This document shows positions 21,313 through 46,624 of a DNA stretch of 64,000 nt, in pieces. This DNA comes from Dyella japonica A8 (GTDB lineage Bacteria > Pseudomonadota > Gammaproteobacteria > Xanthomonadales > Rhodanobacteraceae): contig NZ_CP008884.1 of NCBI RefSeq assembly GCF_000725385.1, positions 4,340,001 to 4,404,000 of the forward strand. The letters run 5' to 3'. Made by a program: the position numbers and the translations under genes. Position 1 is the first letter of the stretch. The number at the start of each line of letters is the position of its first letter. Under the pieces are notes generated by a model that was given only the letters and a program-made list of their open reading frames with translations, was not told the origin of the DNA and searched no databases.

Positions 21313-23295
21313 TCACGCCGCCTTGCGGCGCCCCTGCATACGGACCAGCCCGGCAATATCGACGATCAGCGCCACCGAGCCATCGGCAAGAATGGTGGCG
21401 CCGGAGACGCCCTGCACGCGCCGGTAATTGGCCTCAAGCGACTTCACCACGGCCTGCTGCTGGCCGATCAGGCCGTCGACGAACAGGCCTACGCGCGTGC
21501 CGTCGCCTTCGACGACCACCATCAGGCCCTGATCGATCGCCTGAATCGCGCCTTCGCAGCCAAACGCGTCGTGCAGCCGGATGACCGGGAGGTATTCGCC
21601 ACGGAAGCGGAACAGCTCGCCACCGTTCGCCAGGCTGCGCACCGCTTCGGCGCGCAGCTGCACCGACTCGACGATGGACACCAGCGGCACGATGTAACGC
21701 TCCTCGCCCACCGCGGCGGTCAGGCCGTCGATGATCGCCAGCGTCAGCGGCAGGGTGATGGTGAACACGCTGCCCTTGCCCTGCGTGCTGCGGATGGTGA
21801 CCGTACCGCCAAGATCCGACACGTTACGGCGCACCACGTCCATGCCCACGCCACGTCCGGACAGATCCGTGGTGACCGCGGCGGTGGAGAAGCCCGGCTG
21901 GAAGATGAGTTCCGCCACGGCCTCATCGCTCATGCCTTCGCCAGTGCTGATGATGCCGCGCTGGATCGCCTTGTTGACGATGGCATCGCGGTTGAGGCCG
22001 GCGCCGTCGTCGGAGACTTCCACCACGATGTTGCCGCCACGATGCGAAGCCTGCAGGGTGAGCGTGCCGGTATCGCCCTTGCCGGCAGCGCGGCGCTTGT
22101 CCGGCGTTTCCAGGCCGTGGTCGATGGCGTTGCGCACCAGGTGCACCATCGGGTCGCCGATCTTCTCCAGCACCGTCTTGTCCAGCTCGGTCTGTTCGCC
22201 GATCAGCTCCAGCTTCACCTGCTTGCCGAGTTTCTGGCTGATGTCGCGCACCATGCGCGGGAAACGGTTGAACACGGAAGCGATGGGCAGCATGCGGATG
22301 CCCATGACGCTTTCCTGCAGCTCGCGCGTGTGGCGCGCCAGCTGGGCCAGGCCCTGTTCGAGCAGGGCCAGCCGCGAGGCGTCGATGTCGCCTTCGCGGA
22401 AGGTGTCGAGCATGGACTGGGTAATCACCAGCTCGCCCACCAGGTTGATCAGTCCATCGATCTTGTCGATCGACACGCGGACGGAGCTGGACTCGGCACT
22501 CGCTTCGCGCTGGGCGCGCGCGGCGCCCGCATCGGCAACGGGCGCCGCCGGAGCAGGCACGGCCACGGGTGCGGGCGCGACGTCGGCCACCACATGCCTG
22601 GCTTCGATCTCAAGGTCGCACTCGTCTTCCACCCAGTCGAACACGCCGCTGATGTCAGCGCGCTTGACCGGGCCCTTCAGTTCGATGGTCCAGCCGAGAT
22701 GACACTCGGTGGGGTCCAGCGCGGCAAACGTCGGCAGGCGGTCGAACGACGGCGTGACCTGCAGCTCGCCAAGCCCGGCGAGTTCGCGGATGAGGCGCAG
22801 CGGCTCGTTGCCGCCGGCAAGCATGCCGGCGTGCGGACGAAAGCGGACGGTCCACGCATCGGCCTGGTCCGCGTTGCGTCGCGCCTGCACGGCCGCGGCA
22901 GGAACGCCACGGCCCATGGCCGCGGCCAGCTCGGCACGCAGCCCTTCGGCCACGGCATCGTTGAGCGGCTCGCCGGCCTGCGCGCGGGCGAACATGCCGC
23001 GCAGGCAGTCCACCGTCCGCAGCAGCAATTCGATGATGGTGCCGTCGATGGCGCGCTTGCCGCCACGCACTTCGTCGAGCAGCGACTCGGCCTCATGGGT
23101 GAACGAGGACATCTCCGGGAAGCCGAAGGTGGCCGCACCACCCTTGATCGAATGGGCGGCGCGGAAAATGGTGTGCACCAGCTCCGCATCACCGCCTTCG
23201 TCCAGCGCGAGCAGCGACGACTCCATCGTGTCGAGCCCTTCCAGACTCTCCTCGATGAACACCTGTTGGAACTGCGCCAGACCGGCCTTGCTCAT
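21313..23295 (-). CDS. cheA: chemotaxis histidine kinase, chemosensory operon copy
   Basis: Autophosphorylates on His48 in FRAAHSIKGGAATFG of the HPt (P1) domain and passes phosphate to CheY and CheB. 660 residues. A region at about 165-250 (WTVRFRPHAGML...GWTIELKGPVKRADI...VFDWVEDECDLEI) looks like a folded P2 domain. Dimerisation P3 starts near 285 (RVSIDKIDGLINLVGEL). The kinase P4 has HLVRNAIDHGLETP, VEVSDDGAGL and LSGRGVGMDVV. P5, the CheW-like part, ends the protein. It belongs with the adjacent receptors and CheW. A second CheA lies in the flagellar locus. Confidence 0.96.
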   Translation of the reverse strand: MSKAGLAQFQQVFIEESLEGLDTMESSLLALDEGGDAELVHTIFRAAHSIKGGAATFGFPEMSSFTHEAESLLDEVRGGKRAIDGTIIELLLRTVDCLRGMFARAQAGEPLNDAVAEGLRAELAAAMGRGVPAAAVQARRNADQADAWTVRFRPHAGMLAGGNEPLRLIRELAGLGELQVTPSFDRLPTFAALDPTECHLGWTIELKGPVKRADISGVFDWVEDECDLEIEARHVVADVAPAPVAVPAPAAPVADAGAARAQREASAESSSVRVSIDKIDGLINLVGELVITQSMLDTFREGDIDASRLALLEQGLAQLARHTRELQESVMGIRMLPIASVFNRFPRMVRDISQKLGKQVKLELIGEQTELDKTVLEKIGDPMVHLVRNAIDHGLETPDKRRAAGKGDTGTLTLQASHRGGNIVVEVSDDGAGLNRDAIVNKAIQRGIISTGEGMSDEAVAELIFQPGFSTAAVTTDLSGRGVGMDVVRRNVSDLGGTVTIRSTQGKGSVFTITLPLTLAIIDGLTAAVGEERYIVPLVSIVESVQLRAEAVRSLANGGELFRFRGEYLPVIRLHDAFGCEGAIQAIDQGLMVVVEGDGTRVGLFVDGLIGQQQAVVKSLEANYRRVQGVSGATILADGSVALIVDIAGLVRMQGRRKAA

Positions 23296-30600: not shown

Positions 30601-31062
30601 TCAGGCCGCCTCGTGCTCCAGCGGCAGGCGGCACAGCCGACGAACGTCGAGCAAGGCCACGAAGCCGTTCGGCGAGGGCAGTACGCCCTGCACGGGGTCA
30701 TCCTCGCGCGCCGCGCCGCCGGGCAGCGGTGGCGCAACGTCGGCCGCCTTGGCCGACAACAGGTCGCCAATGGCATCCACGCGGATGCCCACCAGGTGCG
30801 GACCGTGCGAGAGCATCACCAGGCGCACCTGGAACGGGTCCACCCGCCCTTCCTCGTCGAGTCCGAGGCGACGCCGCCCGTCCAGTACCGGCACGATGCG
30901 TCCGCGCAGATGGCGAATGCCCAGCAGGTCAGCGGCCGCACCCGGCACGGGCGTGAGCTCGCCGTCGCGCAGTACTTCGCTCACCTGCGTCAGCGGCGCG
31001 GCATACCACTGCCCGCCGATGCGGAAGGACAGCCAGTCCTCGGTGTTGTGTCCCTGGGTCAT
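30601..31062 (-). CDS. CheW-like coupling protein, end of flagellar operon
   Basis: A 153-residue CheW domain (WLSFRIGGQWYAAPLTQVSEVL, LLGIRHLRGRIVPVLDGRRRLGL, LVGIRVDAIGDLL). It follows motD, the place where pseudomonads carry parC-parP-cheW, and it probably couples receptors to the CheA at 33024-34976. GGGGAGAG precedes the ATG at 31062. It is more divergent than the cheW at 18565; no ParC or ParP gene is visible here, so polar placement of arrays must use another route or genes elsewhere. Confidence 0.88.
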   Translation of the reverse strand: MTQGHNTEDWLSFRIGGQWYAAPLTQVSEVLRDGELTPVPGAAADLLGIRHLRGRIVPVLDGRRRLGLDEEGRVDPFQVRLVMLSHGPHLVGIRVDAIGDLLSAKAADVAPPLPGGAAREDDPVQGVLPSPNGFVALLDVRRLCRLPLEHEAA

Positions 31063-31114
31063 GACACGCTCTCCCCTGCTCTGGTCTTGGCGACCGGTAC
31101 GACGAATATGCAAT

Positions 31115-32266
31115 TCACGGGCCATGCTCGGGCGAGCTCACGCGCGCGCCGCCGACGCTGATGGCACCGGCGGCGACATCGGGCAGGGAAACCTGCGGCG
31201 CAAGATCCGGCCGCGCATCGCCGTCCTGTTGCGCGGTGCGCACGGGTCTGGCGAGGATGACCTTGTTCACCGGCGCGTCTTCCACCGGCTTGGGCGCCAC
31301 CACTTCCACGATCGGTGCGGACTTGCCGGCTGCCGGTGCCACCGCGACCACGGCAGCGGGCGCTGCGGGCGCTGCCGACACGGACGGCGCGGGCGCACCG
31401 CGATCGTCCGCCGTCAGCTGGCCGTTCTGAAGGTCGTTGAGGAAGCGCTTGGGCGCGTCCTCTTCGCTCAACACCACGATCAACACGCGGCGATTGTGGT
31501 TACGACCGTCCGCCGTGGTGTTGTCGGCACTGGGCCGGTACTCGCCCCAGCCCATGATGCCCAGCCGCGACGGATCCACACCCTGCTCGGAGAACAGTCG
31601 CGCCACGCTCGCGGCGCGCGCGGCGGACAGCTCCCAGTTGGACGGATACAGCGCGGTATTGATGGGACGGTCATCCGTATAGCCCTCGATGCGCACCGCA
31701 TTGGGAAACGGCTTGAGGATGGACGCCATGTTGTCGAGGATGTCGTTCGCCTCGGGCGAGAGCCTGGCCGCGCCGCTGGCGAACAGGATGTCGGTGCGCA
31801 GCTCGATCTCCAGCCACGACGTGGTCTTGCGCACGATCACCATCTGCTTGTCGATCAGGGGCTGCAACGCGCGCTGCACCTGGTCGCGGATCGATTCCAA
31901 GTTGCGCTTCTCCTGTGACTCCGAGCCCGAGCGCGAATCCGCGACACGCACCAGTTGCGGGCGCGCTGGAATCGGCACGCTCACCGGGGTGGTGGCAGCG
32001 CCCGGCCGGGACTGCGGTGACGCAATGGCCGGATCGACGTTGTGCGGCTGCGCACGCGTCTGCGGCATCGCGGCGATCACGTGGCTGGAGCCGTTGAACG
32101 CCTCGATGATGGAGTTGGACATCACGCGGTACTTGCCCTCGTTCACCACGGAGACCGCGTACATCACCACGAAGAAGGCCAGCAGCAGCGTCATCAGGTC
32201 GGCATAGGGGATCGCCCATGCCTCGTGGTTGACGTGGTCCTCGTGATGTTTTTTCTTCCTGGCCAC
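31115..32266 (-). CDS. motD: flagellar motor stator protein MotD (MotB-like)
   Basis: Stator subunit anchored to peptidoglycan, partner of MotC. 383 residues: N-terminal basic tail (ARKKKHHEDHVNHE), one TM helix with the proton-binding Asp in WAIPYADLMTLLLAFFVVMY, and the OmpA-like peptidoglycan domain about 150-265 (ILFASGAARLSPEANDIL, VRIEGYTDDRPINTALYPSN, WELSAARAASVARLF). A Pro/Ala-rich tail of about 110 residues follows, longer than usual. The start is GTG at 32266, 15 bases after motC; no ATG gives the full basic tail. Confidence 0.94.
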   Translation of the reverse strand: MARKKKHHEDHVNHEAWAIPYADLMTLLLAFFVVMYAVSVVNEGKYRVMSNSIIEAFNGSSHVIAAMPQTRAQPHNVDPAIASPQSRPGAATTPVSVPIPARPQLVRVADSRSGSESQEKRNLESIRDQVQRALQPLIDKQMVIVRKTTSWLEIELRTDILFASGAARLSPEANDILDNMASILKPFPNAVRIEGYTDDRPINTALYPSNWELSAARAASVARLFSEQGVDPSRLGIMGWGEYRPSADNTTADGRNHNRRVLIVVLSEEDAPKRFLNDLQNGQLTADDRGAPAPSVSAAPAAPAAVVAVAPAAGKSAPIVEVVAPKPVEDAPVNKVILARPVRTAQQDGDARPDLAPQVSLPDVAAGAISVGGARVSSPEHGP

Positions 32267-32280
32267 GATGCTGCGCCCGG

Positions 32281-33021
32281 TTACGCCAGGTAGCCTTGAA
32301 GCTTGGCTTCGATCTGGCGCGGGTTGGCGCCTTCGGCGATCGCGACCAGGCCTTCGATCAGGATTTCGCGCATCTGCGTCTGCTTGTGGATCAGCGCCTT
32401 CAAGCGGGCCGACATCGGCAGCATCAGCAGGTTGGCCAGCGCCACGCCGTAGATGGTGGCCACGAACGCGGCGGCGATGCCGTGGCCGAGCTTGCTCGGG
32501 TCGGCCAGGTTCTGCATCACCGCCATCAGGCCCATCACCGCGCCGATGATGCCCATGGTCGGCGAGAAGATGCCGGCGTTCTCGAATACCTTCGCACCGG
32601 CCAGGTCGTGATGCTCGCGCGCGCCCACTTCCACTTCCAGCACGCCGCGGATGGCCTCCGGCTCGCTGCCGTCGACCAGCAGTTGCAGGCCCTTGCGCAC
32701 GAACGTGTCGCTTTCCGAATCGATCTGCGGTTCCAGGCCCAGCAGGCCCTGGCGGCGCGAAATCTCGCTCCAGCCCACGATGCGGCTGATCAGGTCCGAT
32801 GGCTGATGCTGCGGCGGCTTGTACACCAGCGGGAACATCGACATGGCGTGCTTGAGCACCTTGCCGGAGTTCTGCACCAGCAACGCGGCGATGGTGCCCA
32901 GGAACACAATGACGAACGCGGCCGGGTTCCACAGCGCTTCCACGCTGGAACCCTTGAGGACGGTGCCGACGATGATGACGATGAACGCCAGGATCGTGCC
33001 GATGAGACTTACCAGGTCCAT
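32281..33021 (-). CDS. motC: flagellar motor stator protein MotC (MotA-like)
   Basis: Ion-channel stator protein of 246 residues with four TM helices (LIGTILAFIVIIVGTVL, FVIVFLGTIAALLV, GIFSPTMGIIGAVMGLMAVMQ, GIAAAFVATIYGVALANLLM). The conserved cytoplasmic loop contains charged residues thought to touch FliG. The GIIGAVMGLMAVM motif is typical of the pseudomonad MotC group. It is two bases downstream of cheA and upstream of motD in one operon. A second stator pair (MotAB) is not in the window. Confidence 0.95.
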   Translation of the reverse strand: MDLVSLIGTILAFIVIIVGTVLKGSSVEALWNPAAFVIVFLGTIAALLVQNSGKVLKHAMSMFPLVYKPPQHQPSDLISRIVGWSEISRRQGLLGLEPQIDSESDTFVRKGLQLLVDGSEPEAIRGVLEVEVGAREHHDLAGAKVFENAGIFSPTMGIIGAVMGLMAVMQNLADPSKLGHGIAAAFVATIYGVALANLLMLPMSARLKALIHKQTQMREILIEGLVAIAEGANPRQIEAKLQGYLA

Positions 33022-33023
33022 GG

Positions 33024-34976
33024 TCAGCTATTCACACGCAGAGTGGGGAGGAGTTGACCGTCTGCGCCGGACAAACCGGCCAGATCCATCACCAGCGCCA
33101 GACGGCCGTCGCCGGTAACCGTCGCACCCGCCACGGCGGGCACGCCTTCGAACAGGGGACCGAGCGGTTTCACCATCACGTCTTCGCGGCCGATCACCTC
33201 GTGCACCAGGCAACCCAGGCGCATGTGGCCGATGTGCAGCACCACCACGTGACGGCCCGACGGGCCTTCCACGCCGACCCAGCCGCCAAGGTCTGCCAGC
33301 GCCAGCGCGCGACCGCGATGCGAGGCCACGGCGCGGCCGTCGAGCTGTTGCTGCTGGCCCGGCGCCAGCTCGAACACCTCGTCCACGTTGCTCAGCGGCA
33401 GCGCGAGCAGGCGCGCTCCCACGCGCACCATCAGCACGCGCTGGATCGCCAGCGTCAGCGGCACGGCCAATTCCAGCGTGCTGCCCTTGCCCAGCTGTGA
33501 GCGCACGGAAAGCGTGCCGCCCAGTTCCACCACGCGCGTCTTCACCACGTCCATGCCCACGCCACGACCGGAGATGTCGGAGACGGTGGCCGCCGTGCTG
33601 AAGCCGGGGCGGAAGATGATTTCGTAGCATTCGTTCTCGGTAAGGCGCGAGGCCTGCGCCTCGTCCATCAATCCTTTCTCCACCGCCTTGCGGCGCAGGA
33701 CCTCGGGATTCATGCCGCGCCCGTCGTCGGACACGGTGATAACGATGCGCTCGCCGCGCTGACTCGCACCCAGCGTCACCTTGCCCTTGCGCGGCTTGCC
33801 GGCGCGCTCGCGTTCTTCCGGCATTTCCAGGCCGTGGTCGAGCGCATTGCGGATCAGGTGCACCATGGGGTCGGCAAGCGCCTCGACCAGGCTGCGGTCG
33901 AGATCAGTGCCCTCGCCTTCCTGCACCAATTCCACGTCCTTGCCGAGCTGGCGCGACAGGTCGCGAACGATGCGCGGAAAACGCTGGAACAAGCGGCCGA
34001 CCGGCTGCATGCGCATGCCGAGTACGGCGTTCTGCAGGGCGTCGGCGACGCGATCCAGTTCCGTGGCGGCCAGTTCGAGCGTTTCGTCGCCGTTCTTGGC
34101 CGCGAGGCTCAGCAGGCGATTGCGCACCAGCACCAGTTCACCGGCGCGGTGCACGAGTGCATCGAGGCGCGCGGTGTCCACGCGCACGGTGTTTTCCGGC
34201 GCAGGGGCTGCGGCCTTTGCCGAAGCAGCGGGCGCCGGCGCGGGAGCGGCCACCGGTGCGGATGCCTGCGTGCCCGGCACGCCACCCTTGCCATGGAGAT
34301 TGTCGAGCAGCGACTCGAATTCGTCGTCGGAAATCGTGCCGGCCGTGGTGGCCGCCGCCGGCGCTTCCACCGCACCGGGCATGCCGCCCTTGCCGTGCAG
34401 ATTGTCCAGCAAGGCCTCGAATTCGTCGTCGGTGATGCTGCCCGAGGACGATTCCGCCGCCGGTGCGCCCGGTGCGCCACCGGTGCCATACAGGCTGTCC
34501 AGCAGGGCCTCGAATTCCGAATCGTCAATGGTGCCGTCACTGGGCGGCGGCGCCACCGGCGGAGCGACGGGCTTGGGCACCGGCTTGGGAGCCGCCGCAC
34601 CGGGCATCAAGCGCTGCAGCAGCGCCTGCGGCGGCATCGCCATCGGCTGGCCACCGGCCAGCGCGGCCATCATGTCGTTGAGCAGATCCAGCGCTTCGAG
34701 CAGTGCGTCCATGCGCGCGGCATCGAGCAGCAGCTGCCCGTTGCGCGCCACGTTGAGCAGGTCCTCGGCGTGATGGCACAACTGCACCATCGGCTCGATG
34801 GCCAGAAACCCTGCGCCGCCCTTCACCGTGTGGAACGCGCGGAACACGGCGTTCAGCAGCTCGGCGTCGCGCGGCGAGCCTTCCAGCCCGATCAACTGTT
34901 CACCCAGGCGCTGCACCAGCTCCCCGGCTTCCACCAGGAAATCGTTGCGCAGCTCGCTGTCCAGCGTGGGATCCAT
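33024..34976 (-). CDS. cheA: chemotaxis histidine kinase, flagellar-locus copy
   Basis: 650 residues. HPt domain with His49 in FRAFHTVKGGAGFL. Residues about 128-262 form a Pro/Ala-rich linker that holds three copies of a short motif instead of an obvious globular P2: DDSEFEALLDSLYG near 151, TDDEFEALLDNLHG near 182 and SDDEFESLLDNLHG near 216. P3 starts near 263 (VRVDTARLDALVHRAGELVL). The P4 kinase has HLIRNALDHGLEMP, VSDDGRGM and ISGRGVGMDVV. P5 is C-terminal. It most likely phosphorylates the CheY two genes upstream and controls the motor. Confidence 0.96.
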   Translation of the reverse strand: MDPTLDSELRNDFLVEAGELVQRLGEQLIGLEGSPRDAELLNAVFRAFHTVKGGAGFLAIEPMVQLCHHAEDLLNVARNGQLLLDAARMDALLEALDLLNDMMAALAGGQPMAMPPQALLQRLMPGAAAPKPVPKPVAPPVAPPPSDGTIDDSEFEALLDSLYGTGGAPGAPAAESSSGSITDDEFEALLDNLHGKGGMPGAVEAPAAATTAGTISDDEFESLLDNLHGKGGVPGTQASAPVAAPAPAPAASAKAAAPAPENTVRVDTARLDALVHRAGELVLVRNRLLSLAAKNGDETLELAATELDRVADALQNAVLGMRMQPVGRLFQRFPRIVRDLSRQLGKDVELVQEGEGTDLDRSLVEALADPMVHLIRNALDHGLEMPEERERAGKPRKGKVTLGASQRGERIVITVSDDGRGMNPEVLRRKAVEKGLMDEAQASRLTENECYEIIFRPGFSTAATVSDISGRGVGMDVVKTRVVELGGTLSVRSQLGKGSTLELAVPLTLAIQRVLMVRVGARLLALPLSNVDEVFELAPGQQQQLDGRAVASHRGRALALADLGGWVGVEGPSGRHVVVLHIGHMRLGCLVHEVIGREDVMVKPLGPLFEGVPAVAGATVTGDGRLALVMDLAGLSGADGQLLPTLRVNS

Positions 34977-35174: not shown

Positions 35175-35816
35175 TTAGAAACCGAATTCGCTCAGCAGGC
35201 GATCCGCCTCGTCCTGGCTGGTCACCTTCACCGGGCCCGCGGCGGCTTCACCCGTTGCCAGCGCGCCGGTCAGGCTCACCAGTTCCAGCAGCGAGTTCTC
35301 CACGCTGCCGATGAAGTTCACGACTTTCTTGATGCGCTGGCCGGACAGGTCCTGCCACGACTGCGCCACCACGAAATCGGCCATGCCTTCGCGGTATTCG
35401 TTGGCGAACGACTGCGCCTGCGTGGCCAGCACGTGGGCAACGTCGCCTTCGCTCGTGCCCTCGATCACCGCGCTGGCGTTGGCGGCCAGCGTCTCGGCCT
35501 GCGGGCGCATGCGCTCGGCGAAGTCGAGCGTGCGGTGCGCGGCCTGCGAGCTCATTTCCAGCACGTCCTGCAGGTGCTTGCGCGCGTCGGCGACGCTGCC
35601 CGGCACGCCTTCCTGCGCGAGGTCGCCGCCCAGGCGGCGCACGGCATCGTGCAGGTCGCGGGCCAGCAGGCCCAGGGCGCGGAACAGGCGCTGCTCGCGC
35701 TGGCGTACCAGCACGTCGAGCGCCTGTTCGAAGGCAGCACCGTCGGTGCTGTTGAGAAGATCGTGCAGTTCCTGCGGCATCGATTCGCCGGCTAGCAGGG
35801 AGACTTGTGCGTTCAT
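35175..35816 (-). CDS. cheZ: CheY-P phosphatase
   Basis: Dephosphorylates CheY-P to end the signal. 213 residues, long helical hairpin with the catalytic-loop signature [21 protein letters not shown] (Gln that activates water). The C-terminal CheY-docking helix reads [12 protein letters not shown], as in other CheZ proteins. The ATG overlaps the cheY stop by 4 bases. Confidence 0.96.
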
Positions 35817-36220
35817 GCGTTGGCTCCGCTGGCGGCCAGGCGTTCGAAGATCTTGCTGAGTTTTTCCTGCAGGGTGACGGCGGTGAACGGCTTGACGATG
35901 TAACCGTTCACGCCCGCCTGCGCGGCGGCGATGATCTGGTCGCGGTTGTTTTCCGCGGTGACCATGAGCACCGGCATGCCCTTGAGCGAAGGCTCGGCGC
36001 GGATGGCGCGCAACAGGTCGATGCCCGTCATGTTGGGCATGTTCCAGTCGGTCACGACCATGTCGAAGGCGTTGTTGCGCAACATGGTCAGCGCGTTCTC
36101 GCCGTCGTCGGCTTCCTGGATCAGCGTATTGCTGAAACCGAGCTCGACCAGCAGGTTGCGAACGATGCGCCGCATGGTGGAAAAGTCGTCCACCACGAGG
36201 ATCTTCATATTCTTGTCCAA
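35813..36220 (-). CDS. cheY: chemotaxis response regulator, motor switch
   Basis: Phosphorylated CheY binds FliM and changes motor direction. 135 residues: acidic pocket Asp11/Asp12 ([10 protein letters not shown]), phosphoacceptor Asp58 ([12 protein letters not shown]), Thr88 (LMVTAENN) and Lys110 (YIVKPF). This matches the canonical motor-type CheY. I start at TTG 36220 because GGAG sits seven bases before it; the ATG at 36208, which would give the usual MKILVVDD start, has no ribosome binding site. Confidence 0.94.
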
Positions 36221-45273: not shown

Positions 45274-45611
45274 CGCAGCTTGCGCACGCGTTCGGCCGGG
45301 CTGATCACGTCGGTCAGGCGGATGCCGAAACGTTCGTTGATCACCACCACTTCGCCATGCGCCACCAGCGTGCCATTGACGAACACGTCGAGCGGTTCAC
45401 CGGCCGAACGGTCCAGTTCCACCACCGAGCCCTGGTTGAGCTGCAGCAGGTTGCGAATGCTGATACGCGTACGGCCCACTTCCATGGCGAGCGTGACCGG
45501 TACGTCGAGGATCATGTCGAGGTTGACGTCGGCACCTTCGCCCATGGGGGCGCTGAGCTGGTCGAATTCGACGCGCTGGGTCGCGCTGACGGCGTCATTG
45601 GTCGGAATCAT
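45270..45611 (-). CDS. fliN: flagellar motor switch protein FliN
   Basis: 113 residues forming the SpoA-type C-ring domain: DVPVTLAMEVGRTRISIRNLL, LNQGSVVELDRSAGEPLDVFVNGTLVAHGEVVVINERFGIRLTDV in the usual order. It makes the lower C-ring and binds FliH. The ATG overlaps the fliM stop by 4 bases. Confidence 0.97.
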   Translation of the reverse strand: MIPTNDAVSATQRVEFDQLSAPMGEGADVNLDMILDVPVTLAMEVGRTRISIRNLLQLNQGSVVELDRSAGEPLDVFVNGTLVAHGEVVVINERFGIRLTDVISPAERVRKLR

Positions 45612-46624
45612 GCGGGGTCGATCTCCAGGGCGGGTTCAGTCGACAGGCGCATTTCGCGGCGACCCGTCGGGGCATGGAAGCGGACGGCCGTGCGGCCGTT
45701 GTTCTGGCCGTAGCGGCCACGGAATACCGGCACGTCTTCGGCGAAGACGGTGCTGAACTCCGGCAGTTGGATGGGAATGACATCGCCGGGACGAAGCTGC
45801 AGGAAGTCGCCGATGCTCAGGCGCGTTTCGAGCAGCAGCGAGCTCAGCTCCACTTCGGCGTCCAGCACTTCGTCCTGCAGGGTTTCGGCCCAGCGGTGAT
45901 CGCGATCCACGCGGTCGCTCTGCACGCCGGCATCGAGCAGCGTGCGGATCGGCTCGACCATGGCGTACGGCAGGGTCAGGTGCACTTCGCCGCCGCCGCC
46001 ATCGAGTTCGATGTGGAACTTCGACACCACCACCGTTTCGGTGGGGCTGACAATGTTGGCGAACTGCGGGTTGATCTCGGAATTGAGGTATTCGAAGTTG
46101 AGTGGCAGCACCGGCGCCCAGGCTTCCACCATCGAGGTGAACAGCTCGGCCAGCATGATCTGGATGACGCGATTCTCGGTGGGCGTGAAGTCGCGACCTT
46201 CGATGCGTGCGTGGAAACGGCCGTCGCCACCGAAGAAATTGTCGATCACGGTGAACACCAGGCGCGGCTCCATCACCACCAGCGCCGTGCCGCGCAGCGG
46301 CTTGATGCGTACCAGGTTCAGGTTGCTCGGCACGGCCAGGCCATGCACGTACTCGGCGAACTTGAGCATCTTCACGCCGAGCACCGACACCTCGCAGGTC
46401 TTGCGCAGCACGCCGAAGACGGCGGTGCGGAAGAAGCGGGCGAAGCGGTCGTTGACCATTTCCAGCGTCGGCAGGCGACCGCGCACGATGCGGTCCTGCT
46501 GAGTGAAGTCATACGAAATGACCGCATCGGGCGGCAAGGGTTCGTCGTTACCCGTCTCGACCGCGCCACCTTCCACGCCGTCGAGCAGGGCATCGATTTC
46601 TTCCTGTGAAAGCAGGTCGCTCAT
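45608..46624 (-). CDS. fliM: flagellar motor switch protein FliM
   Basis: 338 residues. The N-terminal CheY-P docking peptide LSQEEIDALLDGVEGG is intact. The middle domain includes GGxGRFHARIEGRDFTPTENRVI, and the C-terminal SpoA domain includes SIGDFLQLRPGDVIPIQL. It is 13 bases after fliL. The docking peptide is strikingly like the motif repeated three times in the CheA at 33024-34976. Confidence 0.97.
   Translation of the reverse strand: MSDLLSQEEIDALLDGVEGGAVETGNDEPLPPDAVISYDFTQQDRIVRGRLPTLEMVNDRFARFFRTAVFGVLRKTCEVSVLGVKMLKFAEYVHGLAVPSNLNLVRIKPLRGTALVVMEPRLVFTVIDNFFGGDGRFHARIEGRDFTPTENRVIQIMLAELFTSMVEAWAPVLPLNFEYLNSEINPQFANIVSPTETVVVSKFHIELDGGGGEVHLTLPYAMVEPIRTLLDAGVQSDRVDRDHRWAETLQDEVLDAEVELSSLLLETRLSIGDFLQLRPGDVIPIQLPEFSTVFAEDVPVFRGRYGQNNGRTAVRFHAPTGRREMRLSTEPALEIDPA

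Follow-up and report, generated by a model that had tools for sequence, protein, structure and literature searches.

The flagellar chemotaxis kinase CheA encoded in the window—the whole stretch of 64,000 nucleotides analysed here—carries three copies of a short acidic motif in the linker between its P1 and P3 domains (Table 1). Textbook CheA docks CheY through P2, a folded ferredoxin-like domain; here, the linker probably replaces P2 by multivalent, FliM-like docking of CheY. Recruitment of CheY by repeated short motifs had been proposed from the DNA alone, and it remains the best-supported reading after our analysis: the motif shares a register with the peptides of FliM and CheZ, no P2 is detected, and every linker of this type that was scanned retains at least one copy.

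Table 1 Features of the flagellar CheA locus and of the second CheA in the window
Feature	Position in window	Strand	Residues	Basis or remark
Flagellar CheA	33024..34976	minus	650 aa	translation, Pfam, PDB relatives
Domains of flagellar CheA			P1 (Hpt) 8-99; linker about 128-261; P3 262-319; P4 370-508; P5 514-635	
P1–P3 linker	34194..34595	minus	128-261	Pro/Ala-rich, without folded P2
Motif copy 1, IDDSEFEALLDSLYG	34485-34529	minus	150-164	predicted helix 152-163
Motif copy 2, ITDDEFEALLDNLHG	34392-34436	minus	181-195	predicted helix 183-193
Motif copy 3, ISDDEFESLLDNLHG	34290-34334	minus	215-229	predicted helix 217-227
CheZ	35175..35816	minus		Pfam CheZ; sits between cheY and cheA
CheZ C-terminal peptide	35178..35222	minus	15 residues	compared with the motif; diverged
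CheY	35813..36220	minus		Pfam Response_reg; proposed partner
motC	32281-33021	minus		Pfam MotA_ExbB
motD	31115 to about 32281	minus		by inspection
CheW	30601..31125	minus		CheW domain; directly after MotD
FliM	45608..46624	minus		N-terminal sequence, not Pfam
FliM N-terminal peptide, LSQEEIDALLDGVEG	46568-46612	minus		compared with the motif
Second CheA	21313..23295	minus		P2 type, without the motif
Folded beta-alpha-beta-beta-alpha-beta domain of second CheA	22597..22857	minus	P2 position	structure model; ferredoxin-like folds

By its domain content the protein is a CheA kinase: Hpt, H-kinase_dim, HATPase_c, and CheW, corresponding to P1, P3, P4, and P5, all scored above their Pfam cut-offs, and residues 100–261 held no Pfam domain above cut-off. 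The gene belongs to a single-strand cluster ordered flhF-flhG-fliA-cheY-cheZ-cheA-motC-motD-cheW, in which cheY, cheZ, cheA, and motC were identified by Pfam, cheW by its CheW domain, and the remaining members by inspection. The product of a further frame we take, from its N-terminal sequence, to be FliM. Unlike in most relatives, parC and parP are absent between motD and cheW, and since cheW follows motD immediately, there is no room for either gene at this site.

Each motif copy comprises 15 residues of the 134-residue linker. The sequence-only reading had described three copies spaced 31–34 residues apart; all three were found, at measured distances of 31 and 34 residues, and the last two do run on as KGGxPG (KGGMPG and KGGVPG, respectively), with copy 1 continuing as TGGAPG. 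A 20-column profile made from 38 of the copies—38 rows, which match by construction—recovered the three copies from the whole 4.83-Mb genome at E-values of 2e-8 to 2e-11 and nothing beyond them below E 0.6; against PDB chains it gave no match at E ≤ 10. No Pfam or NCBIfam model reached its cut-off on the motif here. SHOCT matched 16 of 20 members, but with 22.9 bits it stayed under the 27-bit cut-off and was rejected as the identity of the motif; matches to GemA and EF-hand were likewise discarded, since they fell short of the cut-off or reflected a chance resemblance between acidic helices.

The motif is no peculiarity of this genome: it marks a wide branch of gammaproteobacterial CheA. Of 46 genomes across genus, family, and order, 29 (the window's among them) gave matches below E 1e-3, in frames that are flagellar CheA judged by place. 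Three copies were present in 19 of 20 genus genomes, the twentieth (G004) having its CheA split across two contigs. In a phylum sample, at least 54 of 299 genomes matched; all the matches listed, through which alone the classes drawn are visible, lie in the window's class or nearer. With the flagellar CheA or its relatives as query, we further drew 229 distinct linkers from relatives, from 120 regions taken among the matches listed from a class sample of 370 genomes, and from 80 named loci (the best 80 of 589: Pseudomonas, Vibrio, Photobacterium, Shewanella, Marinobacter, Alteromonas, and others). To contribute, an open frame had to show a P1 as well as an ATPase signature, which left L034, L096, L102, and L154 without a linker, and three P2-type linkers were taken out before the count. 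Scanning related linkers for motif copies, the check that the earlier reading had called for, returned one to five copies in every one of the 229 (one in 7, two in 49, three in 139, four in 33, and five in 1; median spacing 40 residues), compared with a match in 1 of 229 shuffled linkers. An earlier pattern had given zero for L100, L105, L108, L109, L110, L185, and L187; the profile finds at least one copy in each. These counts, together with the genome-wide profile E-values, argue that the motif does not arise by chance.

Within the genus, pN/pS was 0.119 for the motifs, 0.135 for P1, and 0.124 for P3–P5, compared with 0.378 for the spacers (10 of the 19 genus CheA proteins, those beginning MDPTLDSELR), which argues for strong purifying selection on the copies and drift of the spacers. 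The linkers of L105, L110, and L185 keep the core TDEEF(D/E)xLL and have lost the LHGKG part; an extended variant, around LPEGxDPDxD(I/M)TDEEF(D/E)xLLxxR, occurs two or three times in them, and what survives there is the part common to FliM and CheZ.

That the flagellar CheA has no obvious P2 was borne out by both a structure model and a profile search. In a low-confidence AlphaFold2 model (pTM 0.30, from 13 sequences), linker segments 128–151, 162–181, 194–216, and 228–271 fall under pLDDT 50, and the only regular structure predicted is three isolated low-confidence helices, one per motif copy—by this prediction, a helical peptide in an otherwise disordered region, as in FliM and CheZ. A profile built from P2-type CheA proteins, which scored a held-out P2 control at 8.5e-24, matched none of the 229 motif-type linkers at E ≤ 0.01 (best 0.047); no folded ferredoxin-like domain was thus found between P1 and P3. 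We used this profile because the Pfam models PF07194 and PF09078, which we take to be those of P2, were absent at E ≤ 1 from the flagellar CheA and also from the second CheA of the window, which bears a folded domain, so that their negative result (likewise obtained for 20 relatives at E ≤ 0.01) is weak. This second CheA had been thought to have a folded P2, and a structure model indeed gives a folded domain at that site, which falls among ferredoxin-like folds; the genome-wide motif profile found no copy in it. As the linkers of 20 of 20 other CheA proteins also contained no motif, P2 and motif are so far mutually exclusive. Compared with P2 of the E. coli and Thermotoga types, the linker occupies the same site between P1 and P3 and would share the proposed task of holding CheY; however, P2 is folded, whereas the linker is predicted to be disordered with short helices.

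The peptides of FliM and CheZ bind CheY at its alpha4-beta5-alpha5 face, like E. coli-type P2. The likeness of the motif to the FliM N-terminus in the same window, which had prompted the original proposal, is real: FliM LSQDEIDALLHGV, CheZ GQDEVDDLLSSLG, and CheA ITDDEFEALLDQLHG align without gaps in one register, around a core of (D/E)-phi-(D/E)-x-L-L-x-x-phi. The corresponding pattern, [DEQ][FIV][DE]x[LI][LI]xx[LVIM], is present in 321 of 328 CheA copies, which hence display the acidic helix spacing phi-xx-LL-xx-phi of CheY-binding peptides, and in all 30 FliM N-termini chosen by similarity to the window's FliM (a pattern-chosen set, without L203, gave 29/29). Elsewhere in FliM and Che/fla proteins, 245,608 residues in all, it occurs three times (once in FliM, twice in CheZ); given that the pattern was written post hoc and that the background proteins are mutually related, these counts do not constitute a probability. 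The CheZ half of the comparison stood in part. The CheZ C-terminal peptide (DEVDDLLSSLGF) is as described and has the same hydrophobic spacing as the CheA motif, with the pattern in 105 of 111 tails, but the window's own tail (EADRLLSEF) has diverged and, read by eye, fails the strict pattern.

Two further comparisons support the likeness less than the pattern does. With a score matrix, FliM N-terminal 15-mers (20 variants) were beaten by 0 to 9e-5 of background 15-mers from the remaining proteins of the loci, CheA and CheZ excepted, and CheZ tails by 2.4e-4 (median; 4e-4 for the window's own tail); internal CheZ segments outscored the tails and headed the single 15-mer list. In a profile–profile scan, the FliM N-terminus reached only rank 3 of 2222 scanned windows, below two internal CheZ segments—a result that tempers the case for CheY recruitment—and the CheZ tail was outside the top 25. 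The CheA motif profile itself retrieved neither FliM nor CheZ from the own genome at E ≤ 10. The three peptides also differ in layout. FliM has the same acidic amphipathic helix, but as one N-terminal copy with (S/T)Q ahead of it, and CheZ has one copy at the chain end, mostly ending in GF, whereas CheA has one to five internal copies (here within residues 150–229 of 650, away from either terminus). Moreover, CheA has a conserved Phe where FliM has Ile or Val, and this Phe and the LHGKG extension are missing in FliM and CheZ.

From these comparisons, we infer that the motifs bind CheY, with avidity and with some preference as to its phosphorylation. The linker would be a disordered tether with three acidic amphipathic helix-forming motifs, each of which would form a short helix upon docking to CheY at its alpha4-beta5-alpha5 face. 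Placed on that face, the array would do the job of P2: it would raise the CheY concentration beside the P1 phosphohistidine, and several weak sites could give avidity or fast turnover. Since that face is also the one bound by the FliM and CheZ peptides, competition for CheY is to be expected between linker, motor, and phosphatase. FliM-type peptides prefer phosphorylated CheY, which by analogy poses a difficulty, in that such a linker would hold the product and not the substrate. The Phe and the LHGKG tail may alter this preference or point to another partner.

The CheY side is consistent with docking by the linker. In nearly all of 114 CheY relatives, 12 of the 13 positions that presumably form the FliM/CheZ/P2-binding face carry one common or closely similar residue, and position 90 varies; since CheY is conserved as a whole, this only permits the interpretation as CheY docking. 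Speaking against it, residues 90 and 91 (E. coli numbering) are both Asn in the window's CheY, compared with mostly A/S/Q and K in the relatives, and this change may, together with the diverged CheZ tail, reflect a joint change of the docking face. Among the 120 loci, cheY was found in 114 and not in L072, L091, L094, L099, L119, and L179. Four of the latter (L091, L094, L099, and L179, all of family f110) have a motif-type CheA with no cheY in the flank; their cheY may lie elsewhere in the genome.

Other partners have to be weighed against CheY. In Vibrio CheA, a segment called LID, together with ParP, keeps the kinase in polar arrays, and LID must presumably lie in the linker where the motifs occur. 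The motifs could thus be a LID-like segment that docks ParP, in the window's genome a relic or reassigned to another polar partner; we consider this unlikely. It is favoured by the CheA proteins of Vibrio, Photobacterium, and Shewanella, in which this linker bears these motifs too, and by a ParP-like frame in 77 of the 102 CheA rows with cheW in the locus (a tally that excludes L101). Yet the earlier remark that no ParP gene is seen applies genome-wide too, within the reach of a profile built from 18 ParP-like proteins (leaving out L077 and the CheW of L101): its best match in the own genome has 24 bits, in a CheW-domain frame, and the ParP of G128, outside the profile's rows, has 122 bits and that of G350, inside the training set, 142 bits. 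Of the 29 genomes across genus, family, and order that bear the motif, the window's among them, 26 gave no match above 33 bits (exceptions G020, G042, and G052), and 16 of 18 chosen genomes gave none of ParP grade, G350 and G128 having one. The genus copies nonetheless stay at three and under strong constraint. ParP-like scores across the loci range from 18 to 168 bits, so that distant ParPs could be missed. As a separate observation, the own genome encodes a single 532-residue frame with three tandem CheW domains (G000:C1:2474312-2475736).

Comparably improbable is a contact of the motifs with the P1, P4, or P5 domain of CheA itself, with CheW or CheB, or with receptor tips, for instance as an inhibitory or packing element. 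Such partners are general to chemotaxis arrays, which deprives co-occurrence tests of discriminating power, acidic amphipathic helices are of a common kind, and the AlphaFold2 model (pTM 0.30) gives no indication for or against a packed site. However, contacts of this sort leave both the FliM/CheZ match and the mutual exclusion with P2 unexplained, and the second CheA type also needs CheW and receptors, yet is without the motif.

Recruitment of CheZ, placing the phosphatase at the pole, is very improbable. CheA-short of E. coli recruits CheZ and cheZ is present in 111 of 120 loci, but PF04344 (CheZ) was absent genome-wide from three of ten genomes searched (G079, G210, and G190), all of which have cheY adjoining cheA and retain FSDAEFEALLDRLHGKG or AISDEEFETLLDGMYG in the linker. 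A ParP-like frame is present in G190; G079 and G210 have neither a ParP-grade match nor CheZ genome-wide and keep one motif. This co-occurrence, with the motif kept in genomes lacking them, rejects ParP and CheZ as required partners, and retention in the latter two genomes adds to the case for CheY. Finally, that the linker is a low-complexity region in which a peptide without special function has recently been duplicated, as its Pro/Ala-rich spacers and the likeness of copies within one protein might suggest, has a negligible chance of being right and is refuted by conservation, with the motif in all 229 linkers and constrained, by pN/pS, as strongly as the kinase domains.

We see an even chance that FliM-mimicking docking extends across the branch, that is, that P2 was lost in a group to which Pseudomonas, Vibrio, Shewanella, and Marinobacter belong, with CheY docked instead by one to five such motifs on a disordered tether under one peptide code. 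If so, kinase, phosphatase, and motor would read CheY with this shared code, and copy number would consequently tune how strongly CheY is buffered and competed for at the pole. The CheY docking step would then differ in Pseudomonas, Vibrio, Shewanella, and similar groups, and phosphoflow, CheY localisation, and gain would have to be modelled differently in well-studied swimmer genera. Docking of CheY by the linker would also open up simple peptide-binding and point-mutation tests, and the natural series of one to five copies is material for studying multivalency in signalling.

A further type of CheA was encountered in L241 (G359:C4:3651475-3653734), a 646-residue frame whose linker is without the EFEALLD motif and instead bears three copies of a different short motif, approximately (I/V)(E/D)EGFG(F/L)F(D/E)—perhaps a second, independent linear-motif linker.
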